Assembly (NCBI GenBank): GCA_022564475.1
Contig: JADFLJ010000005.1
Coordinates: 1 to 34,342, forward strand
Reading direction: 5' to 3'
DNA from: Pseudomonadota bacterium
GTDB taxonomy: Bacteria > Pseudomonadota > Gammaproteobacteria > Steroidobacterales > Woeseiaceae
DNA: 34,342 nt
A program made the translations under genes and the position numbers. Positions within the stretch are counted from its first letter, which is position 1. The number at the start of each line of letters is the position of its first letter. Under the pieces are notes generated by a model that saw nothing but the letters and a program-made list of their open reading frames with translations, ran no database searches and was not told where the DNA came from. Shown one piece after another: positions 24,565-31,630 of this stretch.

Positions 24565-26309
24565 GCTTGCTCAACATTGAATCCCTGTCGGTGAGTTATG
24601 CTGATGAAAAGGTAATCGACAGGCTTAGCTTCTGTGTGAACACGGGCGAGTCTGTCGGGTTGGTCGGCGAATCAGGCTCAGGCAAAACGCAGACAGCGCT
24701 CGCGATTCTTGGCCTGCTGCCGGGAAATGCGAAAACGGCCGGCAGCATCAGCTTCGACGGCAAGGAGTTGCTGGGGGCTCCGGAGCAAGAGCTAAACCGC
24801 ATTCGTGCGCGGCGCATATCAATCGTATTCCAGGACCCGATGCTTGCGCTGAATCCCTATTTGCGAATTGGCGAGCAGATTGGCCGGATATTGATTGCGC
24901 ATGGATTGTGCGGCGGGGCTGAGGCAAAAGAGCGTGTTATCGAGATGTTGAATGCCGTGGGCCTGCCCGATCCGGAGCGACAAAGCCGGGCGTACCCACA
25001 CCAGCTGTCGGGCGGGATGCGGCAACGCGCGATGATCGCATCTGCACTGATCACCAAGCCGGATTTGTTGATCGCCGACGAGCCGACGACGGCGCTGGAT
25101 GTCACGGTGCAGGCGCAGATCCTCGAATTGCTGAACGCAATTCGCAAAGACACGGCGTTGTTGCTGATTACACACGATCTTGGTGTGGTCGCCGGGCATT
25201 GTGAGCGCATGCTCGTGCTTGAGCGCGGCCGGCTGATCGAGTCGGGTACGACGCGCGAGGTTTTCGGCGCACCGCAGCACGCACATACGAAAGCAATGCT
25301 GGAAGCCGCGCCGCGAATCCGTCGCGGCGACATTCCGTCGCCAGTGGATGGCGAGGTCTTGCTCAAGGCTGACGGCGTATCGGTCAGCTACCGCGAAGCC
25401 GGACACGGGCAGCTACACGCGGTGCGCGATGTTGACCTGACACTGAAGCGCGGCGAAACCCTGGCCATTGTGGGTGAGTCCGGTTCGGGCAAGTCGAGCC
25501 TGGTTCGCGCCATTTTGGGACTCATACCGATGCGTGCGGGCACGGTCAGCTTCTATGGCGAGACGCTTGCGAAGGAGGCCGGCGCCCGCGCTGCGAAAAC
25601 ACGCCGTGATTTGCAAATGGTATTTCAGGATCCCGTTGGCTCACTCAATCCGCAAATGTCCGTGGTCGATATCGTTCGTGAGCCGCTGCTCGTACATGAG
25701 CCATTGCTGACGAACGCGGAGGGCGTGCAGCGTGTGTCAGAGATGCTGCAGCAAATCGGTTTGAACGATGTCTTCCTGGGTCGCTATCCGCATGAGTTGT
25801 CGGGCGGACAGGCACAACGAGTGGCGATCGCGCGCGCGCTGATATTGAAACCGAAAGTGCTGGTGTGCGATGAGGCTGTCGCGGCGCTGGATGGCTCGGT
25901 GCGCGAACAAATTCTCGATCGCTTACGGGCGCTGCAAGCGTCAAGCGGGCTGTCGATCCTGTTTATCAGCCATGATCTCGGTGTCGTTCGCGCGATCAGC
26001 CACCGCGTGCTCGTCATGTATCTGGGCCGACTCGCAGAACTCGCGGACAATGAGTCTCTGTTCACGCGGCCGCAGCATCCCTATACGAAGGCGCTGCTCG
26101 ATGCCGTGCCCGTGCCGGACCCGAACCTGCCGCGCAAGGAATACATCCTGAGCGGCGAAGTGCCGTCGATTCTGACGCCGCCGTCGGGCTGCGCGTTTCA
26201 CCCACGCTGTGCATACGCCGTGAGTCGATGTGCACGTGAGCGACCCGCCGCGCTGGGTACAAACTCAAGCGTCGTCGCCTGTCACCGAGCAGACGAACTG
26301 AGCCTATAA
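24561..26309 (+). CDS. Peptide ABC transporter fused ATPase (OppD-OppF type)
   Basis: The 582-aa protein fuses two ABC ATPase domains, each with Walker A (GESGSGKT at 36-43, and GESGSGKSS in the second half), an LSGGMRQR or LSGGQAQR signature, Walker B ADEPTTALD or CDEAVAALD, and a switch His. It ends with the PSGCAFHPRCAYAVSRCARERP segment found at the C-terminus of OppF/DppF. The fused arrangement is also known from YejF and GsiA. In the second domain Walker B reads CDEAVAALD rather than the usual DEPTSALD, a change that still keeps the catalytic Glu. Start is GTG overlapping the oppC stop. It powers the OppBC channel. Confidence 0.93.
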   Translation: MSLLNIESLSVSYADEKVIDRLSFCVNTGESVGLVGESGSGKTQTALAILGLLPGNAKTAGSISFDGKELLGAPEQELNRIRARRISIVFQDPMLALNPYLRIGEQIGRILIAHGLCGGAEAKERVIEMLNAVGLPDPERQSRAYPHQLSGGMRQRAMIASALITKPDLLIADEPTTALDVTVQAQILELLNAIRKDTALLLITHDLGVVAGHCERMLVLERGRLIESGTTREVFGAPQHAHTKAMLEAAPRIRRGDIPSPVDGEVLLKADGVSVSYREAGHGQLHAVRDVDLTLKRGETLAIVGESGSGKSSLVRAILGLIPMRAGTVSFYGETLAKEAGARAAKTRRDLQMVFQDPVGSLNPQMSVVDIVREPLLVHEPLLTNAEGVQRVSEMLQQIGLNDVFLGRYPHELSGGQAQRVAIARALILKPKVLVCDEAVAALDGSVREQILDRLRALQASSGLSILFISHDLGVVRAISHRVLVMYLGRLAELADNESLFTRPQHPYTKALLDAVPVPDPNLPRKEYILSGEVPSILTPPSGCAFHPRCAYAVSRCARERPAALGTNSSVVACHRADELSL

Positions 26310-26356
26310 ACAGGGGTCGGATCCAGGTTAGCTAAACTTGATCCGACCCCTGTTTA
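26307..26356. repeat. 50-nt near-perfect palindrome, probable terminator or REP-like element
   Basis: A 17-nt arm beginning TAAACAGGGGTCGG (26307-26323) pairs perfectly with 26340-26356, and the 16-nt centre is itself palindromic around TTAGCTAA with two mismatched pairs: 23 of 25 pairs overall. It lies between the convergent opp operon and the DUF945 gene, only 4 bp from the latter's stop codon. The GGGGTCGGATC core is reminiscent of short dispersed repeats in environmental gammaproteobacteria. Bidirectional termination is likely despite the lack of a strong T-run. Confidence 0.8.
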
Positions 26357-28451: not shown

Positions 28452-29438
28452 ATGAATCGGCCATCAGCACACACCATAGAGTTCAGCGATGGCGTTTTCG
28501 CGATCGATACCGAGTACGCGCGTCCCATGCAGGACGCAAGCCATCTAATTGTTGAAGGCAGCAAAGCGGCGTTCGTCGACACAGGCGCGAACGACAGCGT
28601 GCCGCTGTTGCTCGACGCACTTGATCAGTGCGGACTGACGCCCGCCGACGTTGACTACGTTTTTCTAACGCACATTCATCTTGATCACGCGGGTGGCGCC
28701 GGCCTGCTTATGCAGCAATTGCCGGCCGCGCGTTGCGTTGTTCACCCGCGCGCTGCGCGCCACATGATCGACCCCTCGAAACTGATCGCCGGCACGATCG
28801 CCGTGTACGGCGCGGAAACGACACAAAAAACATATGGCGACATTCAGCCGATCGACGAGCAGCGAATTGACATCGTCGAAGACGGACAGTGGATAGACTT
28901 CAATGGCCGCAAGCTGCAAACGATATTCACCGAAGGACACGCGAGGCATCACTACGTGTTGAACGACCCGACGTCACGCGGCGTGTTCACGGGTGACGCG
29001 TTCGGTGTTTCCTATCGTGAAACGGACACGGACAATGGCGCGATCATTTTTCCGACGACAACGCCGATCGACTTCGACCCCGAAGAAGCACACAAGTCCA
29101 TCGATCGCATCATGGCGTGTAAGCCCGAGCACGTATATCTAACCCATTACAGCAAAGTGGTGGATCTTGAGCGGCTGGCGCAGGACATGCATCAGGCTAT
29201 CGACGACTATGTTGAGATAGCACTCGCAAACGAAGATGCGGCCGATTGCGAACAAGCCATACAAGACGGTTTGTTCGACTACATGTGCGGGCGCCTGGAG
29301 AAACACGGATTTACGGGCGACCGTGACGAAATGTGGTCGATCATGAGCATCGACGTAAGGCTGAACGCGCAGGGCCTGGATGTCTGGCTTAATCGACGCC
29401 GGAAAGCGCAGGAAAGAGCCGGCGCTGCGCATGGATAA
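28452..29438 (+). CDS. MBL-fold metallo-hydrolase
   Basis: The 328-aa protein carries the metallo-beta-lactamase metal motif HIHLDH (His74, His76, Asp78, His79), a later TEGHARHH histidine, and GDAFG with the metal-bridging Asp. These imply a di-metal (usually zinc or iron) hydrolase. The family covers glyoxalase II, lactonases and other hydrolases, and the C-terminal half does not decide among them. It starts 21 bp after the cytochrome gene and overlaps the next gene's start by 8 nt, so all three are probably one transcript. No signal peptide, so it is cytoplasmic. Confidence 0.88.
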   Translation: MNRPSAHTIEFSDGVFAIDTEYARPMQDASHLIVEGSKAAFVDTGANDSVPLLLDALDQCGLTPADVDYVFLTHIHLDHAGGAGLLMQQLPAARCVVHPRAARHMIDPSKLIAGTIAVYGAETTQKTYGDIQPIDEQRIDIVEDGQWIDFNGRKLQTIFTEGHARHHYVLNDPTSRGVFTGDAFGVSYRETDTDNGAIIFPTTTPIDFDPEEAHKSIDRIMACKPEHVYLTHYSKVVDLERLAQDMHQAIDDYVEIALANEDAADCEQAIQDGLFDYMCGRLEKHGFTGDRDEMWSIMSIDVRLNAQGLDVWLNRRRKAQERAGAAHG

Positions 29439-30420
29439 GTTTCGCGCGTATCGAATAGACCAGCAGGACGGCAAGATCGTCGCGGCTTTTCAGGAGCTCG
29501 ACATCGATGATCTGTCTCCCGGCAATGTTGTCGTCAGGGTCAGTCACTCGACAATCAACTACAAAGATGCGCTGGCCGCGACGGGTGCCGGAAGAATCCT
29601 GCGCCGCTATCCGCTGAACGGCGGCATTGATTTCGCCGGTAGGGTCGAGAGCTCGGACGACGCCGCATTTCAGCCGGGTACACAGGTGTTTATGAATGCC
29701 TGCGGCCTCAGTGAAACGATCGATGGTGGCTATGCCGAATTTGTACGCGTCGATAGCAAAAACCTCGAGCTTGTTCCCGCGGGAATGACCGCAGCTGAAA
29801 TAATGCAGATCGGAACGGCCGGCTTTACCGCGGCGCTCGCAATTCACCGCATGGAGGAAAACGGACAGCGACCCGAGAACGGCCCCATCGTGGTGACGGG
29901 TGCGACGGGCGGCGTGGGCAGCATCGCGATCGACATGCTGGATGCGCGTGGCTACGAAGTCGTGGCGGTGACGGGCAAGACGAGTGCAGAGAAATACCTG
30001 AAGAGCATCGGAGCGCGACAGGTTCTGGCGCGCGAGCAGATTGATTTCGGCAAGCGTCCGATGGAGAAAGCGCAGTGGGCAGGCGCCATCGATAATCTGG
30101 GCGGCGAAATCCTGACCTGGCTAACACGCACGATGGAATACGGCGGCAATATCGCGAGCATTGGTTTGGTGTCGGGCATCTCGCTAAACACGACGGTTTT
30201 GCCCTTCATCCTGCGAGCCGTTTGCCTGCTCGGCATTAACTCGGTCGATACGCCACGGGCGTTGCGAAAAACGGTCTGGTCCCGCATTGCCGACGATCTC
30301 AGGCCGCGGCATCTGGACAAGATCAGCCATCGGACCATTTCCTTCGATGAATTGCCGGGCGCGTTTCAGGCATACCTCGATGGCACGGTGACCGGACGAA
30401 CGCTGGTGGAAATATCGTAG
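29431..30420 (+). CDS. acuI: Acryloyl-CoA reductase-like oxidoreductase (AcuI/YhdH)
   Basis: The 329-aa medium-chain dehydrogenase/reductase matches the YhdH/AcuI subfamily: MDKFRAYRIDQQ start, STINYKDALAATGAGRILRRYPLNGGIDFAG, and the nucleotide-binding VTGATGGVGSIAIDML. AcuI reduces acryloyl-CoA to propionyl-CoA with NADPH and so lowers toxic acrylate. I chose the ATG at 29431 because it gives the conserved start; a longer frame exists upstream. It overlaps the MBL gene by 8 nt and lies 319 bp before prpB, whose pathway consumes propionyl-CoA. The link is an inference from family and position. Confidence 0.85.
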   Translation: MDKFRAYRIDQQDGKIVAAFQELDIDDLSPGNVVVRVSHSTINYKDALAATGAGRILRRYPLNGGIDFAGRVESSDDAAFQPGTQVFMNACGLSETIDGGYAEFVRVDSKNLELVPAGMTAAEIMQIGTAGFTAALAIHRMEENGQRPENGPIVVTGATGGVGSIAIDMLDARGYEVVAVTGKTSAEKYLKSIGARQVLAREQIDFGKRPMEKAQWAGAIDNLGGEILTWLTRTMEYGGNIASIGLVSGISLNTTVLPFILRAVCLLGINSVDTPRALRKTVWSRIADDLRPRHLDKISHRTISFDELPGAFQAYLDGTVTGRTLVEIS

Positions 30421-30432
30421 ACGCGGCTAATG

Positions 30433-30516
30433 CAGGCCGGCGCGGGTGCGCTTGTTTGCTAGCTACTCGCTGCGCTCCTCGAATGCGTCGCAAACAAGCG
30501 CACCCGCGCCGGCCTG
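30433..30516. repeat. 27-bp perfect inverted repeat (large hairpin)
   Basis: The arms 30433-30459 and 30490-30516 pair at all 27 positions, around a 30-nt loop with CTCGCTGCGCTCCTCG. The left arm begins CAGGCCGGCGCGGG. It follows the acuI stop by 12 bp. It could terminate acuI transcription or be a dispersed repeat element; no transposase is near, and there is no T-run. Confidence 0.85.
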
Positions 30517-30674
30517 TAGCTGTCTCCCTGAAAGAGCAGCAGTGCCGATAGCTGCCTCCTGAATAAAGCAGTGTTCTGCTGCGGCCGCGTAAGTGGCCGG
30601 CAGCAGTAACACGGTAATAGCCCGACCAACCTATTTGGGAAACGGGTGTCCGATGATTTAAACTCCCCTCCCTG

Positions 30675-30739: not shown

Positions 30740-31630
30740 ATGAGTGCTGGAACACGTTTCCGGGCCGCACTCGAGGCGGAACGCCCGCTTCAGATAGTCG
30801 GCACGATCAACGCATACACGGCCTTGCTGGCGGAAAAAGCAGGCCACAAGGCCATCTATTTGTCGGGTGCCGGTGTCGCCAATGCTTCATTCGGGTTGCC
30901 GGACCTGGCCATGACCACGCTAAACGACGTGTGCGAGGACATTCGCCGCATCGCCTCCGCGACCAGTCTGCCGTTGCTCGTGGACGCTGACACGGGCTGG
31001 GGCAGTGCGCTCATGATTTCGCGCACGGTTCGCGAAATGACCCGGGCCGGCGCGGCGGCCTGCCATATTGAAGATCAGGTCGCCGAAAAACGTTGCGGGC
31101 ACCGACCCGGCAAGGCACTCGTCGAGACCGGCGAGATGTGCGATCGCCTGAAGGCGGCAACCGACGGCCGGATCGACGATGGTTTCGTCATCATGGCGCG
31201 CACCGACGCGCACGCTGTCGAAGGACAGCAGGCAGCCATCGAGCGTGCCGTCGCTTACGCGGCAGCCGGGGCCGACATGATTTTTGCGGAGGCGCTCACG
31301 ACGGTCGAGGAATACAAGCAGTTCACCGACGCCGTTGACGTGCCGGTACTCGCGAACCTGACGGAATTCGGCAAGACACCGCTGTTCACAAGCGATGAGA
31401 TGACGGCCGCCGGCGTACGCATGACCCTGTATCCGCTGAGCGCGTTCCGGGCGATGTCCGCAGCGGCGCTTGGCGTTTACGAGACGATTCGCAACGACGG
31501 CACGCAGAAAGAAAGCATCGATAACATGCAAACACGCGAAGAGCTCTACGATGTTCTCGGCTACCAAGCCTACGAAGACAAACTCGACGAATTGTTCGCC
31601 GAAAGAAAAAGGAACACAAATGGCAACTAA
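30740..31630 (+). CDS. prpB: 2-methylisocitrate lyase
   Basis: PrpB splits 2-methylisocitrate into pyruvate and succinate in the methylcitrate cycle. The 296-aa protein matches the E. coli length and has DADTGWG (metal binding) and the KRCGH catalytic motif (117-121, Cys119). The ATG at 30740 is chosen because AAAGGA lies about 6 nt upstream; the longer frame from 30701 starts at TTG and adds 13 unsupported residues. It is the first gene of prpBCD; the operator-like palindrome upstream and an 11-nt overlap with prpC suggest coordinated expression. Confidence 0.97.

Follow-up and report, generated by a model that had tools for sequence, protein, structure and literature searches.

The window analysed here is a stretch of 34,342 nucleotides (contig JADFLJ010000005.1, positions 1 to 34,342) from an uncultured marine bacterium of the gammaproteobacterial family Woeseiaceae, whose genome (G000) is a MAG of 2.44 Mb and 83% completeness. 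Between an acuI-like gene and prpB it holds a long inverted repeat. The protein of the acuI-like gene scores above the NCBIfam cut-off for the acrylyl-CoA reductase family and below that of the AcuI equivalog model. The features of the locus are as follows.

29434-30420, plus strand: acuI-like gene of the acrylyl-CoA reductase family (NCBIfam), its stop codon 12 nt before the element
30433-30516: whole hairpin, an A-type copy (placed by model R1 at 30432-30517, 100 bits)
30433-30459, plus strand: left arm, pairing perfectly with the right arm
30460-30489: conserved asymmetric loop of 30 nt, from the alignment of copies
30469-30475, minus strand: apical GCGCAGC, a C(GNA)G mini-hairpin motif in the sequence, its N variable in the family
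30490-30516, plus strand: right arm, pairing perfectly with the left arm
30740-31630, plus strand: prpB (methylisocitrate lyase), the next gene downstream, 223 nt from the element

An earlier note on this DNA had described perfect arms of 27 bp, and these are indeed present: 30433-30459 and 30490-30516 are complementary at 27 of 27 positions and enclose a 30-nt loop. Among the inverted repeats listed for the window (at least 14 nt, at most 120 nt apart), this one is the longest and the only one free of mismatches. A rough calculation that gives all four bases the same frequency predicts about 1e-10 perfect 27-bp pairs within 60 nt per window-sized piece of DNA. Folded as RNA, the hairpin reaches −66.5 kcal/mol compared to −33.9 (sd 3.0) in 200 shuffles, a z score of −10.8; folded as DNA, its two strands give z scores of −11.2 and −11.8. 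The copy is directly followed by TAGCTGTCTC, which is not a U-tract. A consensus scan places a terminator-like site within the left arm (30439-30452; one found, 0.3 expected), and a sigma-70-type scan finds no promoter-like site around the copy. Rfam has no match in the window at its curated thresholds, the best sub-threshold scores being 26 bits against a required 124 and 15.4 against 100.

Copies, arms and spread

One of the readings offered by the earlier note, that of a repeat element, is borne out by the genome of origin, which has 13 A-type places, the window copy included. BLAST of the 84-nt repeat against this genome gave 12 rows at 11 places, among them a copy that is 93% identical to that of the window over 80 nt and lies in different flanks. 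A covariance model (R1) made from an alignment of ten copies (A2) found 15 distinct places, namely the 13 of A type and two of a sister type, B, and a search with the B-type loop, allowing up to three mismatches, located 10 places. The flanks differ among the aligned copies, except for a tandem pair on contig C107. In this pair (L028/L026; G000:C107:2751-3032), two A-type elements lie upstream of aroB in a 197-nt tandem duplication that also contains a REP-like GTAGGAGCGGCTTCAGCCGC repeat.

The earlier note had named as contrary to its reading arms that are unique to the locus and diverge in relatives with loss of pairing; the arms instead recur and covary. Nine of the 27 pairs have changed on both sides, and 17 such cells in the alignment stand against 6.0 in shuffles, a count that is no probability because the copies are related. 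The resulting picture is that of a covarying stem of about 25 bp around a conserved, asymmetric loop, with arm ends that are less conserved than the loop.

In the family consensus, the arms mismatch (left GGG-GTACTTGTTTGC, right GCAAACAAGCACACCC). Columns 17 and 20 of the alignment, in the middle block, are unpaired in eight of the ten aligned copies and paired in the window copy, which is the only one of the ten without any unpaired column; the C159 copy is likewise paired at these two columns, but has five unpaired columns elsewhere. The left arm of the window copy, moreover, holds a base that is absent from seven of the ten copies. Pairing at columns 17 and 20 where most other copies are unpaired is the pattern expected of arm correction by template switching, and such correction of quasipalindromes has been studied in Escherichia coli (PMC7202029). 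We infer from the alignment that the perfect arms of the window copy are secondary, and that they are most simply explained as a quasipalindrome-to-palindrome correction by template switching. The recent insertion suggested in the earlier note is not supported: no target-site duplication is visible in the flanks of the ten copies, inspected by eye and with no empty site for comparison, and the perfect arms look like correction of an imperfect pattern, not like recent arrival.

Across the 73 genomes of the genus, own included, R1 matches 17 at E <= 1e-3. R2, a model made from 35 elements, matches 55 at E <= 1e-4, again including the genome of origin, and leaves 18 without a match. Most of the genomes searched carry one to tens of copies, where the number of matches per genome is neither exact nor complete, as it lists both strands of a palindrome and derives from at most 61-150 scored candidates in each genome. 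BLAST with the window copy matched its own genome only, the 39 others of the 40 searched being without a match, and a pattern for the A-type core found nothing in a collection of genome contigs, from which we conclude that the stems and the details of the loop drift. The B-type loop pattern matched at least 116 stretches of the genome-contig collection; the 80 of them that were listed by title are mostly MAGs of Woeseiaceae or unclassified Gammaproteobacteria, with a few of Coxiellaceae, Proteobacteria and Myxococcota. At L321, L331 (Myxococcota MAG), L272, L285 and L288 (Coxiellaceae MAGs), the B-type loop is carried on stems unrelated to those of Woeseiaceae, and its occurrence in these two groups reflects either horizontal spread or bin contamination.

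At the level of the class, R2 matches ten of 369 genomes (12 candidates scored in each): G000, its congener G084, and eight genomes with a single match, which is attC-like in six of them and another long hairpin in two. Allowing up to three mismatches, the B-type loop occurs in two of the 369, which are again G000 and G084. Viral contigs gave no match to the A core or the B loop, and plasmids and phages, where the B loop was the search pattern, gave none to it. In the literature, a search for the loop sequences, palindromic repeats, attC triloops and Woeseia, covering titles and the opening parts of abstracts, returned nothing recognisable as this hairpin family, which on that basis is apparently undescribed; the loop sequences led only to a survey of swine Torque teno virus and to work on rpoB of Photorhabdus, both judged to have no connection with it.

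The loop apex and the probable folding strand

The bottom strand of the A-type copies in G000 reads GCGNAGC at the loop apex in 12 of 13 cases, the exception, on C64, being GCTTAGC. In 40 B-type copies, the inner closing pair is kept in all 40, the outer one in 39 and the loop G-N-A in 38; the closing pair is C:G in 38, and the middle base may be A, C, G or T. These copies include 11 different 7-mers, between which the closing pairs are exchanged together (GC/GC, AC/GT, CC/GG, GT/AC). The counts refer to apexes of fixed length, elongated ones being left out; 28 of the 40 copies are from stretches of the loop-blind scan described below, and loci fetched by the exact apex pattern are set aside here and included in a wider set of 161. 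In terms of sequence, the apex thus has the C:G closing pair, the loop G..A and the free middle base of an N4-type C(GNA)G hairpin. GNA triloops are described as unusually stable DNA mini-hairpins with a sheared G·A pair (PMC6479982, citing Yoshizawa 1997). In the early promoters of phage N4, the 5′ G and 3′ A of the loop together with the closing pair are required for hairpin extrusion, which takes place at physiological supercoiling, and the two strands behave differently, in that SSB melts the other strand and spares the hairpin strand (PMC4496689). A DNA folding program assigns no special stability to the bare loop of the present element (z −0.02 and 0.02).

The motif also emerges from a scan for long inverted repeats that is blind to the loop and covers 1.75 Mb of sequence from the genome of origin and five others of the genus. 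For loops of 19-45 nt, C(GNA)G with two closing pairs is found in 9 of 13 hairpins at a score of at least 18, in 16 of 23 at 14 or above, and in 19 of 36 at 12 or above, with 0.66, 1.56 and 2.47 expected, respectively, from shuffled loops; for loops of 3-11 nt and a score of at least 14 it is found in 0 of 11. Most of the scanned stretches are from genomes, and partly from contigs, known to hold elements, the rest not having been chosen by element content, and since most are element-rich, the scan tells what long hairpins look like and not how frequent they are. The stretches from G000, G079 and G005 contain no positive with a loop of 19-60 nt, and 400 kb from G079 and G005 contain no loop-bearing element. 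Among the large-loop negatives are members of other palindrome families (ggggacagtgac..., aggggtcggatcc...).

The mismatches in the arms are distributed very unevenly between the strands. On the top strand, defined as that with the apex TNC, 150 distinct elements with a median arm of 24 have 167 A·C and 21 G·T mismatches (on the bottom strand, accordingly, 167 G·T and 21 A·C), 52 C·C and 3 G·G, and 35 C·T and 4 G·A. The mismatches on the bottom strand are thereby mostly G·T, G·G and G·A, those of greater stability in DNA. As the elements are related, these counts are not independent. The same lean is seen on the top strand of 98 elements that lack a common arm 9-mer (A·C 76, G·T 11) and of 19 elements from the loop-blind scan (25 and 5). 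The sets of 150 and 98 include a few attC-like or other sites from L061-L068, which are excluded from the counts by gene direction given below. The ten aligned copies of the genome of origin have 27 A·C, over ten columns, and two G·T, over two columns, a single column supplying 8 of the 27; the five G000 elements that enter the set of 150 under its stricter ungapped rule have one A·C and two G·T.

The asymmetry is the same for elements whose two neighbours are read in the element's own direction (25:5) and in the opposite one (22:4), and between convergent genes it is 88:11. Since it does not change with the direction of the neighbouring genes, folding seems to take place in the bottom strand of the DNA itself. 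With read-through transcripts, the strand that folds should depend on which way the genes are read, which makes single-stranded DNA the simpler carrier. Part of the asymmetry could also come from a mutation bias specific to one strand, which would likewise need a bottom strand that is special. The structure of the family and its probable folding strand are well supported by sequence statistics.

Gene ends and turnover

The genomic context was analysed for 36 R2 elements in stretches from G066, G085 and G065, which remained from 42 rows after removal of five reverse-strand duplicates and one weak match. As genes were simply taken to be the longest ORFs, some of the individual distances may be inaccurate. 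The elements are enriched between convergent gene ends, which hold 21 of the 35 elements whose neighbours were both called, compared to 71 of 451 intergenic gaps of at least 100 nt; a recount of the same set with each gap counted once gives 16 convergent gaps out of 28. Stop codons are close by: the median distance from an element to the nearest one in its flanks is 18 nt in a larger, selected set, where 70 of 131 have it within 20 nt. Seven tail-to-tail pairs of elements were found, five in G085 and two in G065. Because relatives of the window copy adjoin many unrelated genes, its description in the earlier note as a possible regulatory hairpin before the prp operon is left without support.

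Closeness to stop codons, enrichment between convergent genes, a very stable fold and the terminator-like site in the left arm of the window copy are all features that one would also expect of a terminator, or of a hairpin in the 3′-UTR that stabilises the transcript before it, or brings it to an end, and presents its conserved loop to an RNA-binding protein. However, none of the 36 elements has a run of at least four T within 14 nt, and an intrinsic terminator was rejected for want of such a T-tract. The stable mismatches stay on the bottom strand regardless of gene direction, and a bias towards the sense orientation was likewise rejected, as co-directional contexts have the element 24 times with the genes and 22 times against them. 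Terminator-like sites in the same stretches, oriented by their T-tracts, lean the opposite way, as is to be expected of RNA, in small numbers (G·T 9, A·C 4). An explanation at the level of RNA hence appears quite unlikely.

Comparison of species at individual sites provides a view of how stable the elements are in place. An acuI gene was found in 65 of the 73 genomes of the genus, and the best 30 of the 65 loci, own included, were compared. Occupancy after acuI differs among species, with an element of the superfamily at six of the 30 loci: the A-type element of the window, B-type elements at L179 and L190, one at L180 whose loop contains an additional insertion, and two that are broken or degenerate at L187 and L197. 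R2 by itself finds the window element and that of L180, the others being recognised with a repeat finder and by eye. One locus, L172, has an unrelated palindrome, eleven others that keep prpB downstream have no element, and at the last 12 a scan of 320 nt showed none. As a side observation, the elements of L180 and L197 are both of B type, with a loop that contains an additional hairpin-like insertion, ATCCCGC...CGG.

Two further sites, whose gene names are our own reading and were partly checked by Pfam, tell a similar story. The position upstream of aroB holds an orthologous element in both G012 and G066, the A-type tandem pair in G000, and a reversed B-type element in another genome. The other site follows a short-chain dehydrogenase gene that faces ETF-QO; the elements found there in two genomes agree in loop and orientation and differ in their stems. 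The elements turn over at shared spots, differing in presence, type and orientation, which is no proof of transposition.

This turnover bears on whether the hairpins could be fixed structural sites in the DNA, strand-specific and non-mobile, that serve gyrase, a nucleoid protein or the absorption of supercoils between convergent genes. Such a role would account for the convergent enrichment, the tail-to-tail pairs in G085 and G065, the strand-specific folding and the retention of the orthologous copy upstream of aroB in G012 and G066. It is difficult to reconcile, however, with intergenic spots that differ among species in what they hold, with the 18 genomes of the genus that have no match, and with B-type loops on unrelated stems in MAGs of Coxiellaceae and Myxococcota. 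We therefore consider fixed sites an unlikely explanation.

Possible partner proteins and relation to known systems

When 567 ORFs near the elements were clustered, the representatives of the 20 largest clusters included no transposase; 17 of these representatives have a Pfam match, in each case to ordinary metabolism, transport or regulation, and three have none. This weighs against the elements being MITEs of an ordinary double-strand DNA transposon, with the loop and the asymmetry as by-products. They do resemble MITEs in being non-coding and dispersed, in their long inverted arms, and in the existence of a subfamily with the common outer ends GCAG...CTGC. On the other hand, target duplications are not visible in the ten copies, the loop is better conserved than the arm ends, the mismatches are strand-asymmetric, and no full-length transposon with the hairpin arms as its ends was found. 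Taken together, a MITE origin is highly improbable.

REP, BIME and REPIN sequences are the closest in kind, being short, dispersed, intergenic palindromes that occur in many copies and in inverted pairs, and the REP system with its RAYT protein also relies on strand-specific recognition of single-stranded DNA (PMC8266576). The classical form of such elements, moved by the RAYT (TnpA-REP) transposase, could be invoked here because RAYT (PF01797) has matches in 46 of the 73 genomes and REP-like GTAGGAGCGGCTTCAGCCGC repeats are present in G000. The other 27 genomes have no RAYT match at E 1e-8, some of them being rich in elements. No R2 match lies within about 1.5 kb of any of 30 RAYT loci, which represent 30 of the 46 genomes with a single locus apiece, and the number of matches does not follow the presence of RAYT (p 0.44, rank test, 73 genomes), so RAYT was rejected as the mobiliser. 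The architecture differs as well. REPs of the GTAG superfamily are described as having stems of 5-13 bp and loops of 2-20 nt (PMC3733652), limits that the window copy exceeds with its 27-bp arms and 30-nt loop, as does the stem of about 25 bp in the family; the loop here is long and conserved and contains C(GNA)G. The unpaired GTAG tag touches the arm in only one of ten own copies, judged by eye, which is the window copy itself and probably due to chance. Classical REPs or REPINs are thus a very unlikely identity for the family.

In their working principle, the elements are closer to attC sites, imperfect palindromes whose active folded form is the bottom strand (PMC8946536), as folding of the bottom strand appears to be favoured in the present family, too. 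Some attC-like sites elsewhere even share the apex motif. Six of these (L061-L065, L067), from other gammaproteobacterial families, have the apex TCGCTNCGCT, on the bottom strand by script orientation in four and by eye in the other two; they came to light through R2 and are not the outcome of a survey. An integron integrase (IntI) above the TIGR02249 cut-off is encoded in 11 of the 73 genomes, own included (G000:C62:1699-2637, L394/L395). That the hairpins are degenerate or non-canonical attC sites nevertheless has next to no probability in our view. Their arm ends lack the RYYYAAC/GTTRRRY boxes (R′′/R′; ten copies, by eye), they are scattered beside unrelated genes, and the attC-like sites near the genus's own integrases are without the apex motif. 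An integron origin of the family was rejected, as 45 of the 55 element-bearing genomes have no IntI above the cut-off and the number of matches does not follow its presence (p 0.64). In addition, the six attC-like matches were chosen by a model that scores the loop of the hairpin family itself.

Two other systems offer analogies. The hairpins of phage N4 share the apical motif and the difference between the strands, but are promoters for a phage polymerase, whereas the present elements have a stem of about 25 bp. The ends of IS200/IS605 elements and other HUH substrates are likewise strand-specific hairpins of single-stranded DNA (PMC6006769), from which the elements differ by having no transposase among their commonest neighbours. 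In kind, the family comes nearest to REPs, while its working principle is most like that of attC sites and N4 hairpins; it nevertheless lacks defining marks of both REPs and attC sites.

On the sequence evidence as a whole, the window repeat is probably a copy of an undescribed REP-like family of strand-specific single-stranded DNA hairpins in Woeseiaceae, about 85 nt in length, that would work as folded bottom-strand DNA. We propose that the C(GNA)G apex may nucleate folding of the bottom strand, either within a cruciform or while that strand is template for the lagging strand, and that the loop may then be recognised by a strand-specific enzyme or host protein that binds single-stranded DNA. 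The element would spread non-autonomously and be kept mainly at the ends of genes, presumably because it does least harm there. Both the mobility of the family and its partner protein are inferred. More tentatively, the elements may represent a new class of strand-specific single-stranded DNA hairpin, one defined by a conserved loop with apical C(GNA)G on one strand and by freely covarying stems, and moved or bound by a protein yet to be discovered. The same apex motif in some attC-like sites suggests that it may be a general device for folding one strand of long palindromes in the cell.

Palindromes scattered through genomes tend to be passed over as anonymous repeats, and the copies studied here seem to keep a record of which strand folds. 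Mismatch asymmetry could serve as a test, from sequence only, of whether single-stranded DNA hairpins fold in the cell, and might be extended to other palindromes, REPs and attC sites included. A partner protein, if one exists, would belong to an unrecognised system for handling single-stranded DNA in bacteria with a wide distribution in marine sediments (PMC7082342).

Palindromes of other kinds accompany the family. At L172, the position after acuI is occupied by an unrelated palindrome at the same 3′ site as the window hairpin; it is related to a family with ggggacagtgac arms, seen in congeners at L131:462-562, L138:8364-8438, L146:7967-8043 and L148:17477-17550. The window itself has a second inverted repeat at 26307-26356, which is loopless, with 25-nt arms that match at 92% and a AGGGGTCGGATCC core. 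A palindrome resembling it lies in G065 at L259:91-186, and the two look like members of another dispersed palindrome family.
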